Below are positions 1-8,562 of a stretch of DNA of 21,592 nt, in pieces; position 1 is the first letter of the stretch, and every line of letters begins with the position of its first letter. Source of the stretch: a virus. Location: positions 1 through 21,592 of IMG/VR virus record IMGVR_UViG_3300023112_000110. The stretch is one strand, 5' to 3'. Below the pieces are notes generated by a model that saw only the letters and a list, made by a program, of their open reading frames with translations, searched no databases and had not been told where the DNA came from. Both the position numbers and the translations under genes were made by a program.

Positions 1-256
1 TTTGATTCTCTCTGTAGATATCTAGCACGTTTCCATTGTGGTCCATGAAGACTGCACAAGTAAAATCTGACTCTCTGGCAAGGTCACATCCAACATACAC
101 TTTACCTTGTGGTATTTTTGGCCATTGGTTAACCATACAAGATTTGTAGTTTTGGAATACCATTGATTCTCCTTCTATGAATTCTCCTTGGTACTCTGCT
201 CTGAAGATTGCATCTGGTAGTGTTTTACGGGCTGCATTGATTTCTTCCATATCTAC
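1..256. repeat. Left copy of 256-bp contig-end repeat
   Basis: Bases 1-256 match 21337-21592 except at positions 23 (T here, C there), 130 (T/C) and 131 (A/T). All three lie inside terL: position 23 is silent in Leu266, 131 is silent in Val230, and 130 changes residue 231 from Asn (left) to Asp (right). I read this as assembly overlap of a circular or permuted genome from a mixed population, not as a biological repeat. Confidence 0.9.
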
Positions 257-820
257 AAAAGGGTTACCTTCGTATGTCATTCTATATGATTCATAGTTAG
301 GGTATTCTTTGTCGAGGCCTAGGTGGTACATTTCGTAGAATTGGTCACGGCCACGTGGTGTAGACATGAGGATGACCTTTTTACCTTTGATCAGTACTGT
401 TGGTTGGATCGCTGATCTCCAAGCTTGTTGTTTGATATAGGCTGCTTCATCAAGAAGCATATAGTCGAATGTGTACCCTCTAAGTGCATCATAGTTTTCA
501 GCTGATCTGAAGTAAATAGCTGAACCATTTTGTAAGTGTATCTCATGGTTAGAGAAGTTTACCTTCTTTGTGATTTTTGATTCTGCTATAGCATCATTGA
601 GTTCTTCCATCACCTTTCTAACTTGTTGGTATGTTGGTGAGATGAATGCTGTTTTAGTACCCGGGTCGTTGATTGCAAAGTAAAGTAGAAGGTTTAGGCC
701 AAGCATGGTTTTACCGGCCTGACGGCTTGACACTAACGTATAGTATTTTGCCTCCGTACTAAATAGGAGGTCTATGAATCCTTGTTGGCCTGAGTGAGGC
801 CTAAAGCCTTCTGCTGTCAT
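1..820 (-). CDS. terL: Terminase large subunit, N-terminal part (continues at the right end of the window)
   Basis: This is the ATPase half of the DNA-packaging motor, which pumps genomic DNA into proheads through the portal. Translation from the ATG at 818-820 gives a Walker A motif SSRQAGKT (residues 31-38), a Walker B MLLDE (121-125) and a coupling-type motif STPRGRD (153-159), all classic for TerL. The frame is open to base 1, and the same protein resumes at the right end of the window, so the whole protein would be about 410 residues. The start lies just after the stop of the 49-residue gene upstream, separated by two bases. The last 256 bases are a near-duplicate of the right end of the window. 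The gene is not truncated in nature; the break is where the contig was cut. Confidence 0.95.
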   Translation of the reverse strand, partial: MTAEGFRPHSGQQGFIDLLFSTEAKYYTLVSSRQAGKTMLGLNLLLYFAINDPGTKTAFISPTYQQVRKVMEELNDAIAESKITKKVNFSNHEIHLQNGSAIYFRSAENYDALRGYTFDYMLLDEAAYIKQQAWRSAIQPTVLIKGKKVILMSTPRGRDQFYEMYHLGLDKEYPNYESYRMTYEGNPFVDMEEINAARKTLPDAIFRAEYQGEFIEGESMVFQNYKSCMVNQWPKIPQGKVYVGCDLARESDFTCAVFMDHNGNVLDIYRENQ

Positions 821-822
821 AT

Positions 823-972
823 CTATTCTTCGTTAGAACGAGATCTATTGATAGGTCTCATCAGTAGAACTAGTTTGTAGTCGTAACTCACTACTATCCA
901 CCCATGAAGGCCCTCTGCTTGAATATCCGCTAGAACATTCGATTTGATCACTTTGTATTCGTATTGTATCAT
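823..972 (-). CDS. Small DUF4177-like protein (49 aa)
   Basis: This short gene encodes 49 residues. Its ATG (970-972) overlaps the TGA of the TerS-like gene in an ATGA arrangement, and its TAG ends two bases before the terL ATG, so it fills the gap exactly and is very likely translated. The protein begins MIQYEYKVIKSN and continues with AEGLHGWIVVSY and YKLVLLMRP. The YEYKV...EGWxxV...LxxxP layout resembles the small DUF4177 family, a beta-alpha-beta-beta fold of unknown function common in phages and bacteria. Its tight coupling between the two terminase genes suggests co-expression with packaging proteins, but no packaging role can be shown from sequence. Confidence 0.75.
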   Translation of the reverse strand: MIQYEYKVIKSNVLADIQAEGLHGWIVVSYDYKLVLLMRPINRSRSNEE

Positions 973-1292
973 TCTTCATCTGATTCTCTTTTGTCAGAAT
1001 CAATAGGAGGCCCGAAATTGAACTTCAATGAGTTTAGTATCTTCTCTCCATCTGTTGTGATATCTGTGTGACGTAGTTTAGGTACGAATCTTTCTGACAT
1101 ACGTAACATGATATCTAGTGCTGCCTTTGGATCGTCTGCTGCTACTTGTGCTAACCATATAGATAGATTGTCTAGGTTACCTTCTAGTAACATACCAAAT
1201 GCTTGTTTGATTTGTTTTGTGTGTTTGTTAGTTGTGCCTTTTTGACGGCCGGCACGGTTGATGTTCTCATCTCCTCCTCTGAATCCGCTCAT
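969..1292 (-). CDS. Putative terminase small subunit / DNA-binding packaging protein
   Basis: A 107-residue basic-to-acidic protein. The N-terminus (residues 1-25) has the NRAGRQKGTTNKHTKQIK pattern, the 'GRPKGxxNK' basic leader often seen in small terminase-like proteins of Bacteroidota phages. An alpha-helical central part follows, containing LLEGNLDNLSIWLAQVAADDPKAAL, and then a FVPKLRHTD segment and an acidic tail. It would recognise phage DNA and deliver it to TerL. Its place is two genes ahead of terL in the same transcription unit, linked by an ATGA overlap to the 49-residue gene. The assignment rests on position and this sequence pattern; a generic DNA-binding protein is the alternative. 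Confidence 0.65.
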   Translation of the reverse strand: MSGFRGGDENINRAGRQKGTTNKHTKQIKQAFGMLLEGNLDNLSIWLAQVAADDPKAALDIMLRMSERFVPKLRHTDITTDGEKILNSLKFNFGPPIDSDKRESDEE

Positions 1293-1293
1293 A

Positions 1294-1506
1294 CTATTCT
1301 TCTTTTTGTTTTAGATATTGTTTGTATACATGACCTTTTACATTTCTCCAACATCTTCCACAAGAATTTGGTTTCTTCTTCTGTTTAGTTAGCGCATTGT
1401 AAATGTCGTAAACAGCATCTCTTTGTTCTTGAGTTGCTACTGCATTTACTCCAAATATAGAAAGGTTGATTTCTAAATATTTCAATTGTAACACTGTTAG
1501 TTTCAT
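1294..1506 (-). CDS. Hypothetical protein with CGRC motif (70 aa)
   Basis: A 70-residue protein with a hydrophobic-helical first half (LTVLQLKYLEINLSIFGV), a middle QRDAVYDIYNAL helix, and a basic C-terminus containing NSCGRCWRNVKGHVYKQYL. The CxxC pair (residues 49 and 52) followed by a basic helix could be half of a zinc site or a redox pair, but with only two cysteines neither can be claimed. The stop is followed one base later by the TerS-like ATG, so it belongs to the same operon. I do not recognise a function. The tight spacing on both sides supports it as a real gene. Confidence 0.6.
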   Translation of the reverse strand: MKLTVLQLKYLEINLSIFGVNAVATQEQRDAVYDIYNALTKQKKKPNSCGRCWRNVKGHVYKQYLKQKEE

Positions 1507-1512
1507 TTGTAA

Positions 1513-1752
1513 CTATTGTTTGTTTAAATATCTATCGATGATTTCTGTTAGTAGTCCGACGATTCCTGCTAGAAGAAAGCCCCTAAACCCATACATTCCT
1601 ACAAGTGGTATCACTGAATACCAGTAACCTAGACACAGAGCACATTTAAATGGCTTCTGTGGCAACTTCTCTTCTCTATCAATAGTATCTATGAAGTCTA
1701 CTAAGATAGCTCCTAAGGATGCGAATCCTAAAAGGTTAAATATCATGTCCAT
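1513..1752 (-). CDS. Small membrane protein with KPFKCALCLGYW motif
   Basis: A 79-residue protein with two hydrophobic segments (about residues 4-21 and 45-68) separated by a charged loop with the cysteine motif KPFKCALCLGYW (residues 33-44). The CxxC-x-GxW arrangement before a membrane helix recalls small DUF1360-like membrane proteins found in bacteria and phages. It overlaps the start of the sigma-like gene upstream by 17 bases. Size and topology would also suit a holin or a protein modifying the host envelope early in infection. It lies in the early/packaging block, not with the late genes, which argues slightly against a holin. Function unknown. Confidence 0.6.
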   Translation of the reverse strand: MDMIFNLLGFASLGAILVDFIDTIDREEKLPQKPFKCALCLGYWYSVIPLVGMYGFRGFLLAGIVGLLTEIIDRYLNKQ

Positions 1753-2353
1753 ATTCTCTCATTTTGTTTTGTATGTACTGTTTACATTCGTTAACTGCTT
1801 GGCTGATTGAGGTACGAGGTATCTTTGTTCGTCTTTCTAGTTCTGAATAGTTTGGTGTTTCTATCCACATTCTAAATAGAGTTGCCATATACCATACATG
1901 TTGTTCGTCTGCCATCATATCTTCTAGTATACCTTCTATAGTATCAAGTTGTAGATCTTGTATGAAGTCGTAGTCTTCTGTTTCTAAATGATCCCATACC
2001 TTCTGTCTTTCGGTCTTGTTACCTTTTGCGCTACTATATCGTAGTTGATCATTGTCTAACATACCATCTTCATCGAACTGCGATTGTATTCTAAAAAGAT
2101 TGTCTTTTGCGTATACACGGCCACTCTGCCTGAATATCTTGTGGTATGGGCTCGTAGAGCTATGGTAGTTACGATGGATCATACCAGACATGAATCGCAT
2201 TGCATTGCCTTCATCAACTAACTCTTGTGCTCTTTCGTGCATCATGAATTGTTCTATGATGAAGTGCGCAATCTCTCTATATTCAGGGTCTTGCGTGATC
2301 TTCTCTGACATCTTGACGATATCTTCGTATCTATCTTTTAAAAAGGTATTCAC
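1736..2353 (-). CDS. Sigma-70 region-4-like helix-turn-helix regulator
   Basis: A 205-residue protein. The C-terminus (about residues 150-197) reads TLFRMWIET PNYSELERRTKIPR TSISQAVNECKQYIQ, which has the layout of sigma factor region 4: helix, 'selerrtkip' turn, then a recognition helix (TSISQAVNEC). The N-terminal 145 residues are helical and acidic with no clear region-2 motif. It could act as a phage late-transcription factor that redirects host RNA polymerase, which would fit its position at the end of the early block and the TATATTTG boxes in front of several late genes. Alternatively it is a general HTH adaptor. It overlaps its upstream neighbour by 23 bases, indicating translational coupling. 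Confidence 0.6.
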   Translation of the reverse strand: MNTFLKDRYEDIVKMSEKITQDPEYREIAHFIIEQFMMHERAQELVDEGNAMRFMSGMIHRNYHSSTSPYHKIFRQSGRVYAKDNLFRIQSQFDEDGMLDNDQLRYSSAKGNKTERQKVWDHLETEDYDFIQDLQLDTIEGILEDMMADEQHVWYMATLFRMWIETPNYSELERRTKIPRTSISQAVNECKQYIQNKMREYGHDI

Positions 2354-2888
2354 GTTCTACGTTCTTTCTATTTCGTTTGTTTAGTGGATCTCCTAACATG
2401 TTCTCTACACTAAATCTATCCTGTACACTATATGTAGTTGTAGGACCTTTACCAAATCTACTGCTTTCGTGGTCAACTGGTTCAAATGGTGAATCACTCT
2501 CAGATACAATACTATCTATGAAGTTTAAAGCAGCATGTAGGTAGATACCAAGTTTCATTGCATACTCATCTACAATTTCTGTTTTTAGTACGCCAAGTCT
2601 TCTACCGTTGTATTTTTTGTCTAACACATCTTGTCTCAAACGTATAGCTATTCTATCGCCAAGGTCAATGAACAGAAATGCTTTAGACAGTGGTCCTTCT
2701 TGTATCTTCTCTAGTGTAAATTTAACACATGTTGTATTGAACAAAATATATTGAATATCCGTACGATGCATTGTTAGTGTATCGTGTTCTCCTAGATGTC
2801 TAAACATGCATGTTAAAAACCATGAGAAAAGCGCTTCATTGTCGCTCATTCCTTTACTCAATGCAACCTTGTATACTTTTAGTATCAT
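2331..2888 (-). CDS. Hypothetical early protein (185 aa)
   Basis: A 185-residue soluble protein with a mixed N-terminal part (about 1-130) that includes FSWFLTCMFRHLGEHDTL and FLFIDLGDRIAIRLRQDVL. The hydrophilic, probably disordered C-terminus is rich in Ser, Arg and Asn (ESSRFGKGPTTTYSVQDRFS, NKRNRKNVEREY). I recognise no family. It sits directly behind two winged-helix genes, the slot where lambda-like phages keep a helicase loader, but no AAA or loader motif is visible. The start codon ATG at 2886-2888 is immediately next to the stop of the upstream gene. Confidence 0.55.
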   Translation of the reverse strand: MILKVYKVALSKGMSDNEALFSWFLTCMFRHLGEHDTLTMHRTDIQYILFNTTCVKFTLEKIQEGPLSKAFLFIDLGDRIAIRLRQDVLDKKYNGRRLGVLKTEIVDEYAMKLGIYLHAALNFIDSIVSESDSPFEPVDHESSRFGKGPTTTYSVQDRFSVENMLGDPLNKRNRKNVEREYLFKR

Positions 2889-3329
2889 TTAAAATAGTGT
2901 GTTAACGTTTGTTACTTCGTGTTTTACTTTGTTTAGGGCTTTGTTTACCATGGCTTCTCCGTATTCAGTTAGTTGAATATGTTCAAGTAACTTCGTGCCA
3001 TCTTGGTAACCTGTGGGAACAGTTTCTGTCCTCACTATATGTATCCACCTTTTTTCTATCAAAGTGTCCATAGCATGCTTCCAAATGGTTCTGGTAACCT
3101 TCTTCTTGATATTGTAACGGTGTGCATGTTGATTTGCCATTTCTGTCATAGAATTTACCGCTGTCCCACGAATGAAGGTACGTTCGTTCTTTGCTTTACC
3201 AGTCATGTTGTAAACCATACCTAAAGCCAATGCTTCTTCTGGAGTTAAAGTATCGAATCTAGCATCTTTTAGGTACCAGTTGTTAAATCCTTTGTATTCT
3301 TCTATTGATCTACTTCTTGTTGCTTTCAT
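2889..3329 (-). CDS. Winged-helix DNA-binding protein, probable replication accessory
   Basis: A 146-residue basic protein. Residues about 28-115 look like a winged helix: TPEEALALGMVYNMTGKA helix, a segment with MTEMANQHAHRYNIKKKVTR (HTH-like), helix TIWKHAMDTLIEKRWIHI, then a wing with IVRTETVP and the terminal LTEYGEAMVNKAL helix typical of winged-helix folds. It lies one base downstream of the iteron-bearing initiator, with which it probably shares a transcript. It could be a second initiator subunit, a helicase-loading partner or an early repressor. The DNA-binding fold is a pattern judgement, not a family match. Confidence 0.55.
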   Translation of the reverse strand: MKATRSRSIEEYKGFNNWYLKDARFDTLTPEEALALGMVYNMTGKAKNERTFIRGTAVNSMTEMANQHAHRYNIKKKVTRTIWKHAMDTLIEKRWIHIVRTETVPTGYQDGTKLLEHIQLTEYGEAMVNKALNKVKHEVTNVNTLF

Positions 3330-3330
3330 G

Positions 3331-3900
3331 TTAAATTTCTGTATTTAGTTCTAGTATCAGTTCTTGCATGGTTTCTTCAGGGTCCTTTTCGCCCTTTGGA
3401 GAAGACGATGACGAAACGTCGTCTTCTCCCCTATATAGATCTTTACTATTTGTAAGATCTATACTATCTATATGTGTAACCGCCGGTAACAGGTCTGTAC
3501 CTCCAGGGTTACAGGTTTGTCCTCCAGGGTTACAGGTCTGTACCTCTGGGGTTACAGGTTTGTCCTTTAGGGTTACAGGTCTAAATAGCTTTTTGTCGTT
3601 TCTTTGAGCCATTCTCTCTACTAAATCAAAGTTAAACTGAAACGTATTGTATACAGAACCTTTAGTATTTTCTGAGTTTGGTCGTAGTATACTTTTCTGT
3701 ATACAGAGTTTAAAGAAGCCGTTAACGTACTTTCTAGTACATCCAGTTTTGCCAGCATATTGATTTTGGCTCCATTTGACTTTACCGTTCATGGCATAGT
3801 CGGACAGCATTGATATCAATACTAGTTTTTCGTTAGGTGAGAACGTCGTAGAACTGAGTAACCAGTACGGCGCTTTGTGGAAATCTTTGTCTATCTTCAT
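3331..3900 (-). CDS. Replication initiator (lambda O-like layout) with internal iterons
   Basis: A 189-residue protein. Residues about 8-75 fit a replication-type winged helix: HKAPYWLLSST, then FSPNEKLVLISMLSDYAM, and a WSQNQYAGKTGCTRKYVNGFFKLCIQK helix-turn-helix. A Pro/Thr/Gly-rich linker (107-142) follows, then a Ser/Asp/Glu-rich C-terminus (150-189). The linker is encoded by five 21-22-bp DNA repeats, as in lambda O, where the initiator gene contains the origin it binds. The C-terminal part would then recruit host helicase or its loader. It is the first gene after the large intergenic region and thus the likely start of the early operon. No RepA or DnaA catalytic motif is seen. The name rests on fold pattern plus the iterons. 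Confidence 0.7.
   Translation of the reverse strand: MKIDKDFHKAPYWLLSSTTFSPNEKLVLISMLSDYAMNGKVKWSQNQYAGKTGCTRKYVNGFFKLCIQKSILRPNSENTKGSVYNTFQFNFDLVERMAQRNDKKLFRPVTLKDKPVTPEVQTCNPGGQTCNPGGTDLLPAVTHIDSIDLTNSKDLYRGEDDVSSSSSPKGEKDPEETMQELILELNTEI
3398..3478. other. Candidate origin flank: 11-bp hairpin and AT-rich segment
   Basis: Next to the iterons, inside the initiator gene, is a perfect 11-bp inverted repeat (GGAGAAGACGA at 3398-3408, TCGTCTTCTCC at 3419-3429, 10-base loop). An AT-rich stretch (about 3430-3478) follows, with an imperfect palindrome built on AGATCTTTAC...GTAAGATCT (3439-3463). This matches the usual origin order of iterons followed by an easily melted region. The unwinding role is inferred. 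Confidence 0.5.
3486..3580. repeat. Five iteron-like direct repeats (candidate replication origin)
   Basis: Five copies of GT(T/A)ACAGGT start at 3486, 3508, 3529, 3551 and 3572, giving steps of 22, 21, 22 and 21 bp, about two helical turns each. Flanking bases alternate between CTGTACCTC and TTGTCCTCC versions. Because the 22-bp steps shift the frame, the same DNA is read as T-D-L-L-P, T-C-N-P (twice) and P-V-T (twice) in the protein. Conservation therefore acts on DNA, as expected for initiator-binding iterons. Confidence 0.8.
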
Positions 3901-4038
3901 TGAGGATCGTATATTTTTGTATTTTTACTCAGTCTATATATACGAGTAGTTTACAAAAGTTTCAATATTTTTAAACAAATCGATCAAAACGAATGTAAAT
4001 CGATCCTGTAGTACTGTTACGATTGTAACTTTTTAGAC
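3901..4038 (-). promoter_or_regulatory. Early-operon promoter/operator region with repeats
   Basis: This non-coding stretch lies between the late-unit terminator and the initiator start codon and is very AT-rich. It holds two exact AAATCGATC copies (3977-3985 and 3997-4005) exactly 20 bp apart, and a GTTAC-GATT-GTAAC inverted repeat (4016-4029). These look like binding sites for an early regulator or the initiator. I could not find a clean TTG plus TAnnTTTG promoter pair; AACTTTTG around 3953-3960 (read on the minus strand) is the nearest -7 box. No ORF of useful size is present on either strand. Confidence 0.45.
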
Positions 4039-4069
4039 AAAAAAAGACCCAAGAGAACCTTGGGTCTTT
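4039..4069 (-). terminator. Rho-independent terminator of the late unit
   Basis: A perfect 11-bp stem (AAAGACCCAAG at 4043-4053, CTTGGGTCTTT at 4059-4069) with a 5-base loop. Read on the minus strand it is followed by seven T residues (complement of 4039-4045). It lies downstream of the last leftward late gene and separates it from the early block. Confidence 0.92.
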
Positions 4070-4071
4070 CT

Positions 4072-4134
4072 AAAGTACAGCTAAGATAGTGTGTGAGTAA
4101 ACCAAATATACAATGAAATTGTAGCGTGTACTTT
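4072..4134 (-). other. Structured non-coding segment upstream of the late terminator
   Basis: Inside the 3' region of the late unit are an outer inverted repeat AAAGTACA (4072-4079) / TGTACTTT (4127-4134) and an inner one TACAAT-GAA-ATTGTA (4109-4123). A TATATTTG box on the minus strand (4103-4110) could start a short transcript of roughly 55-60 nt ending at the terminator. No coding potential is seen here. The remaining bases 4135-4203 hold a GTTTAAAC palindrome (4193-4200) and nothing else I can name. Confidence 0.3.
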
Positions 4135-4203
4135 GCTCTGACTGATTTTAAGTATCTATTGTATGCAGCAACTACCGCATTGTTTCAAAAATGTTTAAAC
4201 TAT

Positions 4204-4503
4204 TTACAAAGAAATAGTAGCAGTCATACCTTGAGCAGCTAACATTGTTACCAATGCATTGTGTCCAATCAATAGAATATCTGTACCATCAATAGTTCTG
4301 TCATATGCTACTGAAGCTGTTCTTTTGAAACCAACTTCTAAAGGTGCAAGACCAGTAGTAAAAGCTGCTTCTGATGTATAGATATCTACTAGAGAATCTA
4401 CTTGAGTACCAGTTGCTTGATCTACTGCAGAAACTCTTCCGTATGCGCCAGCTACTTCGATACCTGAAGGTAGTGTTAGTGTTGTTGTGAAATTTAAAGC
4501 CAT
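4204..4503 (-). CDS. Small structural protein at the end of the late unit (99 aa)
   Basis: A 99-residue beta-rich protein with an N-terminus MALNFTTTLTLPSGIEVAGAYGRV, a shape I associate with small virion-associated proteins found near fibre genes in marine phages. The remainder has alternating hydrophobic residues (DSLVDIYTSEAAF, YDRTIDGTDILLIGHNALV) and no cysteines. It is the last gene before the strong terminator and follows the fibre gene by 39 bases, with an A-rich leader (ACTAAAACAAAAAAC) and no Shine-Dalgarno box. It may decorate the fibre or capsid. The exact function is unknown. Confidence 0.55.
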   Translation of the reverse strand: MALNFTTTLTLPSGIEVAGAYGRVSAVDQATGTQVDSLVDIYTSEAAFTTGLAPLEVGFKRTASVAYDRTIDGTDILLIGHNALVTMLAAQGMTATISL

Positions 4504-4542
4504 TTTAAAATGTTTTTTGTTTTAGTATATATTTGATTTTCT

Positions 4543-5763
4543 TTACGCTATTCTGATGCGTAGTGCTCCTGCATTGTGGTATACACCACCTAGTGCTACA
4601 CCACCTGACGCAGCTGCAGTATCATCTGCGTAGTTTAAACTTGAGTAGTTAGCTATTGCAAGCTGGTTAACTGTTGTTGAAGCAGTCCAGTTGATAGCTG
4701 TTACGTTTCTACCGATAGCTACAGTCTCATTGTTGTTTGATTGTGCACCATCACCGATAGCGACTGCGTAGTTACCTGCAGCTCCCGCATCACCGATAGC
4801 GATAGAAGCTTCACCTACTGCGATTGAACTTGCACCGATAGCTACTGAGTATTGAGCTGCTTTAGCGTCATATCCAATAGCTACTGTATCTACACGAACT
4901 GCATCATCTACACGAGCGAAGTTACCGATTGCAACACAGTTTGTAGCTCTTGATTGTGAGTTGTAACCTATACCTATACCTTGTGCTTGTTTTGCTTCAG
5001 CGTTTCTACCGATAGCGATAGAGTATCCACCGTTTGGCTCAGTTAAAGTACCTATACCTATTTTGTCTTGGCCACTTCCACTTTGATCAGATTGATAGCC
5101 TAAAGACACGCCTCTGTCAGAAGAAGTAGAATGCAGTCTACCTATGAGTATAGCACCATCGCTACTAGCACTGTTACTTTCACCGATGACCAGACTGAAC
5201 CTTGCACCAGCATTTACATCAGTACCTATAGCTATAGTTCTACCATCGTTACTAGTACCTCCTACTGCTATTGCATTGTCACCTAAAGCTATCGAGTTTG
5301 AACCACTTGCGTTTGCTGCTGTAGTTGTTAAAGAAGCAGCTGACTGCATACTATCGCTACCTGTACCGCTTTCTAGTCCAGCAGCACCACCGCCACCTGC
5401 AGCGTCGATTGTGATATTGTTTGAGCCATCATCTGTTAAAGTGATGTTAGTACCTGCTACAAGAGTTACATCGTCTGTAGTAGCGTCTGAGCCAGTTAGA
5501 GTTACTTCTACGTTTAAACCTGCTTGAGCAGAAGTTAAGTCGTATGTAGTGTTAGGATCTACTGGTAAACCAGTTACTGTAGCACCTGACACATCAAGTG
5601 TTCCTGTAAATGATGCAGATGTAGTACCTAAAGATAGTGTTGAATCGTTACCTACACCATCACCTACTACTTTTTCAGTAGCACCGATAGCCGCATTGTC
5701 TGAACTTTTAAGAAGTCCAGGGTACGTGTTGTTGATTTGAGTTCCGTTTAACGTTGTTCCCAT
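4543..5763 (-). CDS. Tail fibre / receptor-binding protein with YadA-head-like beta-roll repeats
   Basis: A 406-residue fibre. The N-terminal ~125 residues are typical of phage fibre shafts (GDGVGNDSTLSLGTTSASFTG, LVAGTNITLTDDGSNNITID). A glycine hinge (GGGGAA, about 123-128) leads to roughly 200 residues of 13-16-residue repeats with the signature SIALG..A.A, TVAIGYDAKA, SVAIGASSIA, SIAIGDAGAA and AVAIGDGAQS. This is the left-handed parallel beta-roll of trimeric autotransporter (YadA/Hep_Hag) heads. It would trimerise and bind host surface. No S74 intramolecular chaperone domain is visible at the C-terminus, which ends GGVALGGVYHNAGALRIRIA. It follows the Trp-repeat protein by 16 bases. The family fold assignment is confident; the receptor is unknown. 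Confidence 0.85.
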   Translation of the reverse strand: MGTTLNGTQINNTYPGLLKSSDNAAIGATEKVVGDGVGNDSTLSLGTTSASFTGTLDVSGATVTGLPVDPNTTYDLTSAQAGLNVEVTLTGSDATTDDVTLVAGTNITLTDDGSNNITIDAAGGGGAAGLESGTGSDSMQSAASLTTTAANASGSNSIALGDNAIAVGGTSNDGRTIAIGTDVNAGARFSLVIGESNSASSDGAILIGRLHSTSSDRGVSLGYQSDQSGSGQDKIGIGTLTEPNGGYSIAIGRNAEAKQAQGIGIGYNSQSRATNCVAIGNFARVDDAVRVDTVAIGYDAKAAQYSVAIGASSIAVGEASIAIGDAGAAGNYAVAIGDGAQSNNNETVAIGRNVTAINWTASTTVNQLAIANYSSLNYADDTAAASGGVALGGVYHNAGALRIRIA

Positions 5764-5779
5764 GTTTTAAATATATTGT

Positions 5780-6136
5780 TTACGCGTTCCACAGAGTAGT
5801 CTCTGCTTCCCAATTTGTTGTTGTTGTGTTCCAGATCAAGCCTACTGGAGGCCCTGGAGCTGGTAAGTTTGCTAGTGCGAACCACCAAGAGTTGTTTAAC
5901 GGTGTAGTTAAACCATAGTAAGTTGCAAGTGCTTGTACCCATGAACCATTTACTGGAGCTGTTTGTCCAAAATGCATTGCAAGTGTTTGTACCCACGAAG
6001 TACCTACACGAGTAGTTACTCCTAAATACTCACAATATGCTTGTACCCACGAACCATTTACAGGTGCCGTTACAGCTCCAGATGATTGAGTTTCTACATA
6101 TACTTGTACTGCTGATGTGATGTCGTTTGGTATCAT
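5780..6136 (-). CDS. Trp-repeat protein (four 18-residue repeats), probable tail appendage
   Basis: A 118-residue protein made mostly of four repeats with an exact 18-residue period. Ser-Trp pairs fall at residues 29-30, 47-48, 65-66 and 83-84, in the pattern P-V-N-G-S-W-V-Q-A-x-x-x-Y-x-G-x-T. The C-terminal tail is Trp/Thr-rich (LIWNTTTTNWEAETTLWNA). There is no signal peptide or clear membrane span. It sits immediately before the fibre gene, so a role as a fibre adaptor, small adhesin or virion surface protein is plausible. It starts 7 bases after a TATATTTG box. I recognise the repeat style from phage and environmental sequences but no assigned function. Confidence 0.7.
   Translation of the reverse strand: MIPNDITSAVQVYVETQSSGAVTAPVNGSWVQAYCEYLGVTTRVGTSWVQTLAMHFGQTAPVNGSWVQALATYYGLTTPLNNSWWFALANLPAPGPPVGLIWNTTTTNWEAETTLWNA
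5849..6064 (-). repeat. Four 54-bp coding tandem repeats
   Basis: These are the DNA counterpart of the four 18-residue repeats. The core (C/T)TTGTACCC recurs at 5932, 5986 and 6040, exactly 54 bp apart, with the fourth, leftmost unit diverged (its Ser-Trp-Trp codons near 5880-5890). The constant period indicates past tandem duplication with later divergence. Confidence 0.75.
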
Positions 6137-6143
6137 ATATCTT

Positions 6144-6170
6144 CAAATATATTTTTAGTTCGAGTTGTTT
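6144..6170 (-). promoter_or_regulatory. TATATTTG box 7 bases before the Trp-repeat gene
   Basis: On the minus strand TATATTTG (6144-6151) ends exactly 7 bases before the ATG at 6134-6136, and CAA occurs 13 bases upstream of the box. The box fits the Bacteroidota -7 consensus TAnnTTTG. If it is used, the transcript would begin at or very near the start codon. It is preceded by ACTAAAAA. Confidence 0.5.
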
Positions 6171-6349
6171 AAACCACGTAGTCTTGTTACCGCATCTATG
6201 GCACCCTGTGTACCTATATACATGATAGCTATGTTACACCATTCCGAAGACGTTAGAGTTCCCCAGAACAACCCGTATGAAGCTACAAAGAATACTAGTA
6301 ACTTCTTTGAGATCCAGCTATTTAGAAATTTGTCTATCTTTGCTTTCAT
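6155..6349 (-). CDS. Holin-like small membrane protein (64 aa)
   Basis: A 64-residue protein with a charged N-terminus (MKAKIDKFLNSWISKK), a hydrophobic span about 17-31 (LLVFFVASYGLFWGTL), a second weaker span about 37-54 (WCNIAIMYIGTQGAIDAV) and a basic-polar tail (TRLRGLNNSN). Size, two-span topology and charged tails fit phage holins, which form pores in the inner membrane at lysis. The late-gene location between connector and fibre genes is compatible. No lysozyme-like gene accompanies it. A virion membrane-interacting protein is the alternative. Confidence 0.55.
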   Translation of the reverse strand: MKAKIDKFLNSWISKKLLVFFVASYGLFWGTLTSSEWCNIAIMYIGTQGAIDAVTRLRGLNNSN

Positions 6350-6390
6350 TGAAGTAGTGTTTTAGTTTCTTGATGTTTGTGTTTCCACGT

Positions 6391-6981
6391 TTAGTTAAGC
6401 GGTGTACCTCCGATGCATTCACATCCTTGGCCACTACAGTCGTTACATTTCTTTCCATATTTACTAAAGTAGTTTGGTGTAACAAGACCTGCAAAATATG
6501 CCTTGTCGTTGTTTGGTTCCATACCTTGAGATCCTGGAGAAGAATACTCTGGGAATGTACCTGATGGTACATCACAAAGACGCTCTCGTAGACGCTCGTC
6601 ATAGAACTCTGCCGTATCTAGTACTGATTGACGTAGATACTTTAACTCATCTAAAGAAGTTGCTCCAGTCTCTTCTGATTGGCCTGAAAGGATGCCCTTT
6701 TCTACTAACTTGTACTTTAGTCCTGGTAACATCAAATATACTGAGAAATGTGCTAACATTGGAGCTATATAGTCGTTTAGTAGTGCTTTTTCTTCAGTTG
6801 TTAAATCATCAGCAATCACACCGTCTTTTAACCTATCAAAAAACTTGGTACCAATACGGTCCTGTAAATATAGGTCTTGACTTTGTATGATGAATGGAGT
6901 AACTTCTTCTACTCTTACGTTGTCATCTAGGTTAGTTAGTTGTTTAACCCTCTGTTCTGATATCAATATCGCTAGTGCCAT
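6391..6981 (-). CDS. Head-tail connector / adaptor protein with Cys-rich tail
   Basis: A 196-residue helical protein encoded directly after the portal, which it overlaps by 38 bases. The opening region with NLDDNVRVEEVTPFIIQSQDLYLQDRIGTKFFDRL matches the style of phage DUF6712-like head-tail connectors (gp6-type adaptors), which bind below the portal and seal the head. Residues 130-150 carry a helix DTAEFYDERLRERL. The last 22 residues contain four cysteines (179, 182, 187, 189; C-x2-C-x4-C-x-C), an unusual possible zinc-binding tail. Function is inferred from position and similarity of style. Confidence 0.7.
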   Translation of the reverse strand: MALAILISEQRVKQLTNLDDNVRVEEVTPFIIQSQDLYLQDRIGTKFFDRLKDGVIADDLTTEEKALLNDYIAPMLAHFSVYLMLPGLKYKLVEKGILSGQSEETGATSLDELKYLRQSVLDTAEFYDERLRERLCDVPSGTFPEYSSPGSQGMEPNNDKAYFAGLVTPNYFSKYGKKCNDCSGQGCECIGGTPLN

Positions 6982-8101
6982 TCTCTTCTATTTTGATTTC
7001 TTCTTCTACAGTTGGTAGAATTTCGTTTGGTTCTACTTCTAAAGTTACATTGTAGCCTGCAAATTTCAATGGCCATCCGAATGTCTTTAGTATATGTGAT
7101 TGTTTTGGATCAACCACAGTACCCATGAAGTGGTTGTACGCTACTTTGATTTCTTCTGCATTGCTTGAGAAACCTGCAGAGTCTTTGATACCTAAAAGTA
7201 ACGGTGATGTGATTCTGTGTGATGTCAAGATTCTAGATGTGATTCTTTGCTCTAACGTGATATAGTAGTCATCGTTTGCAGAATCAAGTGGAGTAACTTG
7301 CATTTCTTCGCCGGCTCTCGAAAAACTCAAGAAAAATCTACCGGCATTCTCTTCGCCTGAGAAAGTTTCGTCGATCTCTCTATAGATATCTCTACGTTCT
7401 TCTGGTGTTGGAATTCCTGAACGGAACTGTACAAACATTGAAGGGTTTAAACCTTGCTTTAGGTTCTGATTGTGGAATCTAGAGATTCTTGCATCTAGAT
7501 CGATATCCGTTAAAGCACCAGTATATGATGGTAACGGGTAAAATTGTTGTCCTGGTTGGTAGTCAAATACGTAGTAGATCTGTGATGCATTGTCTCCTTT
7601 GTTGTCTGTAGGATCAAATGATTTGTACTGCTTTGGCTCGTATTTACGTGTATTTCCCCAGTTAGTTGAGTAGTAGTACGAATCTATTTCCGCATCTTCA
7701 TTCTCTTTACCTGAACGTACGTTAGCCATTGGTAGGTGGTAGATCTCAGCGATCTTGTTACCTTCTTTGTTCCACACTACGTTTAGTGAGTATCCTCCAA
7801 ATAGAACGTAGTCTAGTACAATCTTTCCGTAAACATCATCAATAGTCTCACCTTGTAGGTTGATGTATTCGTCACCGATGATATCGATGCCTTGTCCTTT
7901 GATACCATCTGTGATGGCGTTAACTGCAGTCGCGTGCATTGCTGACGTGTTGTACAGCTCAATCAATTCTTGCGGAAACAAGTTAGTTGCTCCAAACTTC
8001 ATGTAGTCTTTACCACGTTGTTCTGAAACCTTTGGTAACTCTACTGCAGCGAATTGTGCTCCTTTTACGCTATATAGCGTCTCTGGTACTCTATTGCTCA
8101 T
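6944..8101 (-). CDS. Portal protein
   Basis: A 385-residue portal, the dodecameric ring at the capsid vertex through which DNA is packaged and ejected. The sequence shows the PBSX/HK97-like portal pattern: FGATNLFPQELIELYNTSAMHATAVNAITDGIKGQG near the N-terminus, a strand region GKIVLDYVLFGGYSLNVVWN, and a stem/crown region with ISRFHNQNLKQGLNPSMFVQF. It continues into ITSRILTSHRITSPLLLGIKDSAGFSSNAEE, a strongly portal-like segment. The end is acidic. It is separated from TerL by about 13 kb of tail and head genes, which is unusual. It starts five bases after the upstream stop, behind TACTAAAAACT. Confidence 0.88.
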   Translation of the reverse strand: MSNRVPETLYSVKGAQFAAVELPKVSEQRGKDYMKFGATNLFPQELIELYNTSAMHATAVNAITDGIKGQGIDIIGDEYINLQGETIDDVYGKIVLDYVLFGGYSLNVVWNKEGNKIAEIYHLPMANVRSGKENEDAEIDSYYYSTNWGNTRKYEPKQYKSFDPTDNKGDNASQIYYVFDYQPGQQFYPLPSYTGALTDIDLDARISRFHNQNLKQGLNPSMFVQFRSGIPTPEERRDIYREIDETFSGEENAGRFFLSFSRAGEEMQVTPLDSANDDYYITLEQRITSRILTSHRITSPLLLGIKDSAGFSSNAEEIKVAYNHFMGTVVDPKQSHILKTFGWPLKFAGYNVTLEVEPNEILPTVEEEIKIEENGTSDIDIRTEG

Positions 8102-8534: not shown

Positions 8535-8562
8535 AAAAAAGCCTAGCTTTCGCTAGGCTTTT
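8535..8562 (-). terminator. Rho-independent terminator after the tail-tube-like gene
   Basis: A perfect 11-bp stem (AAAAGCCTAGC at 8537-8547, GCTAGGCTTTT at 8552-8562) with a 4-base loop. On the minus strand it ends in TTTTTTAG. It sits 26 bases beyond the stop of the 171-residue gene. Confidence 0.9.

Follow-up and report, generated by a model that had tools for sequence, protein, structure and literature searches.

A probable lambda O-type initiator gene with a replication origin inside its own coding sequence, from a phage likely to infect flavobacteria

Do the five short repeats inside a 189-aa gene of this viral genome serve the peptide that they encode, or the DNA itself, and if the DNA, in what process? 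An exact motif scan of the window, by which we mean the whole stretch of 21,592 nucleotides that was analysed, recovered exactly five copies of GT[AT]ACAGGT, all on the plus strand, starting at 3486, 3508, 3529, 3551 and 3572 in steps of 22, 21, 22 and 21 bp, as the first-pass annotation had described them. Exact copies are absent from the rest of the window, including the region upstream of the gene, and with two mismatches allowed the other matches stay near the background level. In gene order the copies fall in frames 2, 2, 0, 0 and 1; the peptides assigned to them earlier are correct, but the two reading frames named in the heading of that annotation are in fact three. We conclude that positions 3331 to 3900 very probably encode a lambda O-type initiator and hold a replication origin in the linker-coding part of the same gene. 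The gene and its repeats, numbered in gene order, are laid out as follows.

3331 to 3900, minus strand: initiator gene, an open reading frame of 189 aa with a predicted N-terminal winged helix, a disordered linker holding the iterons and a C-terminal helix
3601 to 3900, minus strand: winged-helix part, residues about 1-100, with the recognition helix at about residues 56-68, from the predicted model and a fold search
3572 to 3580, plus strand: iteron 1, GTTACAGGT, gene frame 2, peptide P-V-T
3551 to 3559, plus strand: iteron 2, GTTACAGGT, gene frame 2, peptide P-V-T
3529 to 3537, plus strand: iteron 3, GTTACAGGT, gene frame 0, peptide T-C-N-P
3508 to 3516, plus strand: iteron 4, GTTACAGGT, gene frame 0, peptide T-C-N-P
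3486 to 3494, plus strand: iteron 5, GTAACAGGT, gene frame 1, peptide T-D-L-L-P

The two ends of the contig (1-256 and 21337-21592) share 256 bp that are 98.8% identical. The window thus nearly completes a map of about 21.3 kb for a genome that is probably circular or permuted, with strain differences within the shared ends. Nearly all of its genes lie on the minus strand. The portal protein is approximately 32% identical to that of Nonlabens phage P12024, and one relative contig, L113, was binned in an uncultured Flavobacteriaceae assembly; the host is likely a flavobacterium, and the bin may reflect a free phage. A DNA search of window positions 1-8000 against isolate phages and a search of bacterial genomes with TerL gave no match, and initiator searches in isolate phages returned nothing or marginal matches. 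Open-licence papers on lambdoid phages were found, and none on this phage group or on paired hairpins. Several other features of the genome were recorded along the way. A 406-aa protein (4543-5763) carries many SIAIG-type repeats, like adhesin-head repeats, and differs in size and repeats between relatives, and a tandem repeat with a 54-bp unit (5926-6073; 2.7 copies, 70% match) lies inside a likely structural gene.

Pfam gave no match to the window protein, and in PHROGs the protein fell below threshold for every family, the best being O-like at a sub-threshold E=0.03. AlphaFold2 predicts a winged helix, in which the block of residues 11-70 has pLDDT 76-95, with a whole-chain pTM of only 0.44; the iteron-coded linker, residues 102-170, is mostly below pLDDT 50 and is predicted to be disordered. 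A winged helix is also predicted for the protein of L065, a relative considered below. The structure search proposed in the first-pass annotation upheld the winged helix without singling out O, returning generic winged helices (MarR, CRP, RepA N-terminal domains and DnaD), and we rejected the fold search as proof of O identity. Profiles do point to O: of 18 scanned proteins of syntenic relatives, 16 have a match, at best 1.9e-9, to phrog_678 ('replication initiation O-like'), 13 to phrog_270 and 12 to phrog_428; some relatives also match phrog_186, a DnaD-related comparison. The putative identification of the window protein thus draws on synteny, predicted fold and layout.

The surroundings of the gene are as follows.

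2889 to 3329, minus strand: 146-aa gene directly downstream of the initiator, of unknown family, with distant homologues in the same place in L009, L014 and L021
4043 to 4069, minus strand: terminator-like hairpin, an 11-bp stem running into a minus-strand T run, at the end of the upstream transcription unit

Other relatives lack the single winged-helix initiator and have in its slot either an O-like protein accompanied by a DnaC-like loader (E 3.9e-18) or a primase-like protein (L060:4245-5528, L062:56-1265 and L042:1830-3071), which is why we regard the slot as a replication module. From its position, the 146-aa gene is possibly a replication partner. Neither this gene nor a 185-aa neighbour matches any family, and no P-type helicase loader is recognisable beside the window initiator.

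A protein with a fold resembling MarR and CRP regulators might instead bind its own gene as an operator array, repressing or roadblocking transcription and not starting replication, and binding there would indeed affect transcription. We consider this very unlikely, as the promoter side is without intact sites, all groups with such sites have them behind the DNA-binding domain, and both the PHROG matches of 16 of the 18 relatives and the O-like and DnaC-like modules in the slot point to replication. Autoregulation could, moreover, coexist with origin function.

As to what maintains the repeats, the first-pass annotation held that selection has to work at the DNA level. None of 40 codon shuffles scored above 11, and the array scores 40; it can also be described as a 43-bp unit repeated at 90% match, so the window taken alone is insufficient for that claim; a recent tandem duplication could mimic selection. 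The one near-identical contig, L003/L004 (99.6%), adds nothing on this point because its initiator gene is the same letter for letter. It differs from the window in a 107-aa gene upstream of terL (969-1292), where protein identity is only 88.8% and the neighbours stand at 99.6-100%, which suggests local divergence or recombination.

More distant relatives were gathered by TerL and by a 205-aa protein encoded at 1736-2353, and the gene occupying the slot was examined in every one. Repeats were scored when at least 11 of 13 bases matched at a lag of 21-24, with synonymous-codon shuffling as the null. Near-exact 13-bp repeats of this kind were found behind the winged helix in 21 of 27 syntenic genes, against 4.7 expected, with a peak at lag 23 (14 genes against 1.1 expected); the 27 genes are related and are not 27 independent events, and the iteron-bearing set spans several protein groups. 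Gene by gene, the window, L046, L020, L040, L065, L031, L080 and L083 exceed all 40 codon shuffles, and the repeats of L021, L014 and others are weak when judged singly. No repeat passed at lags 21-24 in L051, L064 and L071 (the NWYWECGL group), which keep both hairpins described below, and no initiator with iterons was recognised within the stretch searched in L017/L018.

The repeat sequence itself changes from group to group, and at times inside a group. Beside the window repeat, ACCTGTAAC, stand GGTTAGCATAA in L014, CAGTGTTCA in L021/L009, TAGAAGTGAAG in L083 and ATACTGTTCACAG in L031. L046 carries five copies of GGCCCAAAACGAG in exact 22-bp steps and frames 1, 2, 0, 1 and 2, and the iteron of L080, ATGCACTGCCA, is unrelated to it, although the two proteins are 56% identical and the flanking peptides are the same. 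Most steps across the relatives are not multiples of three, and the copies consequently fall in different frames. L009/L021 and L014 share neighbouring genes at 97.8-100% identity and have different initiators with different iterons, those of L021 and L014 being only 42% identical, a pattern that reads as the exchange of a cognate module. The comparison proposed at first pass, of whether the spacing persists while the linker peptide diverges, thus came out in favour of the DNA: a spacing of 21-24 bp and the position are kept, and sequence, frame and peptide change. Changing sequences at a kept spacing support selection on the DNA, so that claim regains its footing once the relatives are added.

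A subfamily of 13 members, to which L065 belongs, indicates what may read these repeats. Its members have two palindromes, NGXCAAAATGX'CN, 23 bp apart. Nine members have A at X, three (L065, L022 and L037) have T and L081 has C, and both arms of the palindrome change together. Only five variable protein columns separate the X=A members from the rest: alignment columns 79 and 87 belong to the recognition helix, two more are iteron-encoded and column 33 is at neither place; the sample is one of 13 related sequences with few independent changes. Between L020 and L022, at 75% identity, most of the differences fall in the recognition helix and the iterons. The iteron GGTCAAAATGACC of L065 accompanies the recognition helix SPATIKR, and GGACAAAATGTCC of L096 accompanies TGKTISR. 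Taken together, these sequence comparisons offer good circumstantial evidence that the protein reads the iterons in its own gene. In L113 several frame changes break the initiator region (2900-3570), which could be assembly error or decay, and subfamily-like DNA with an ATACCCC/GGGTAT hairpin is still there.

Behind the iterons in gene order lie three further elements.

3430 to 3484, no strand assigned: AT-rich segment adjoining iteron 5, a candidate unwinding element
3434 to 3463, minus strand: hairpin 1, TATAGATCTT (10 nt) AAGATCTATA, a perfect 10-bp stem
3398 to 3429, minus strand: hairpin 2, GGAGAAGACGA (10 nt) TCGTCTTCTCC, a perfect 11-bp stem

The AT-rich segment and the 11-bp hairpin had been reported at first pass as flanking the array, and both were found; the 10-bp-stem hairpin, which sits inside the AT-rich segment, had not been noticed. 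The segment is only moderately AT-rich, with 69% AT against 60% for the genome, and 9% of 55-bp windows are equally AT-rich. The two hairpins, with those at 4043-4069 and 8537-8562, make up the top four of the window's perfect stems by strength. Rfam gave a single match, to a microRNA model below threshold, which was taken as chance.

Across 21 representative genes, 25 perfect stems of at least 7 bp occur behind the iterons, against a mean of 3.0 and a maximum of 8 in 100 synonymous shuffles. Per kb, this part of the genes has 7.9 stems, the winged-helix-coding part 0.3 and the window 0.9. When stems of at least 6 bp were counted downstream in 24 genes, 18 had two or more, three had one (L096, L098 and L046) and three had none (L080, L082 and L083). 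The hairpin pair is not universal, since the group of L046, L080, L082 and L083 has iterons and lacks the two hairpins. Pairing is kept as the stem sequence varies, with CTGCTTC/GAAGCAG, TTGTTTC/GAAACAA and GTTTTTC/GAAAAAC around the same loop, TTTAGC. The hairpin pair behind intragenic iterons, present in most subgroups, is an element new to us.

Genes may contain packaging sites and hairpins may work at the level of mRNA, so the block of repeats and hairpins might have nothing to do with origin firing and be another kind of cis site, for example one for packaging (pac) or for regulation through mRNA structure. Such a role is very improbable given that some 2 kb separate the block from the genes on the terminase side (969-1292 and terL) and that the recognition helix of the encoded protein and the repeats change in step. 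Least credible of all is a functionless array made by neutral tandem duplication in the linker, for which the 43-bp unit and the predicted disorder might speak, but spacing and position recur with unrelated repeat sequences beyond the synonymous-shuffle nulls, cores stay while spacers and frames vary, and palindrome arms change jointly.

For the intragenic origin, we infer binding, unwinding, replication and the role of the hairpins as follows. The winged helix would bind the five iterons to form an O-some-like complex, a step backed by the co-variation in relatives; with the iterons about two helical turns apart, the bound sites would lie on roughly one face of the DNA. The complex would then strain and open the adjacent AT-rich segment at 3430-3484, and the host helicase, loaded by host factors or by a neighbouring phage gene, would start theta replication. 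The hairpins at 3434-3463 and 3398-3429 would belong to the same cis element, most likely as a single-strand protein-loading or priming site. We suggest more tentatively that these phages represent a class of origin in which intragenic iterons are combined with two hairpins that vary in sequence and still pair, forming a structured single-strand site for loading or priming, and in which the recognition helix and the iterons quickly acquire new specificity in step, leaving related phages with mutually incompatible origins.

This family of small uncultured phages offers a natural set of putative initiator-origin pairs with readable specificities, in which one winged-helix scaffold goes with palindromes spaced by 23 bp and a variable base separates with recognition-helix residues. 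How an initiator and an origin trapped in its own gene change together is hard to approach with lambda alone and becomes testable by swaps. Candidate origins and initiators can also be assigned to a phage group whose initiators match isolate phage records only marginally.

Among known systems, DnaD and the DnaD-like phage loaders share the N-terminal winged helix (2v79, TM by target 0.53), but no DnaD C-terminal domain is recognised in the window protein and intragenic iterons are not a defining trait of DnaD. The iteron plasmids of the RepA/Pi type have direct iterons of ~22 bp and a winged-helix initiator, and the RepA N-terminal domains 4pt7, 4pql and 5kbj resemble the window protein weakly in fold and sequence. 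Plasmid iterons typically lie outside the rep gene, whereas all five copies in the window are intragenic, on which ground a RepA/Pi type with a separate origin outside the rep gene was set aside; only one winged helix is predicted, in further contrast to these plasmids.

The closest likeness, one of layout, is to lambda O and ori-lambda, where the iterons also lie within the gene for the initiator, past the part that codes for the DNA-binding domain, at a spacing of about 20-24 bp and in several frames. Run as a control, lambda gave four iterons in O with steps of 20, 24 and 23, frames 0, 2, 2 and 1, and A-tract palindromes. Some relatives of the window have A-tract palindromes as well, and as in lambda O, where an AT-rich tract follows the iterons, the moderately AT-rich candidate unwinding segment is on the far side (PMC3349717, PMC7466680). 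Unlike lambda O, the window protein has about 60% of the length of O and no detectable P partner. Its iteron is not a clean palindrome, clean palindromes being seen in the 13-member subfamily, and where the window has two strong hairpins, the same scan shows no downstream stem longer than 6 bp in lambda O, so that the pair is an origin element without an obvious counterpart there. The lambda-O-like layout put forward at first pass is borne out by the conserved spacing and position, the predicted winged helix and the O-like PHROG matches of the relatives. The accompanying suggestion of an undescribed initiator-origin pair stands at the level of the family: the kind, a lambda O-type intragenic origin, is already known, and what is new here is the family, its hairpin pair and its co-changing specificity.
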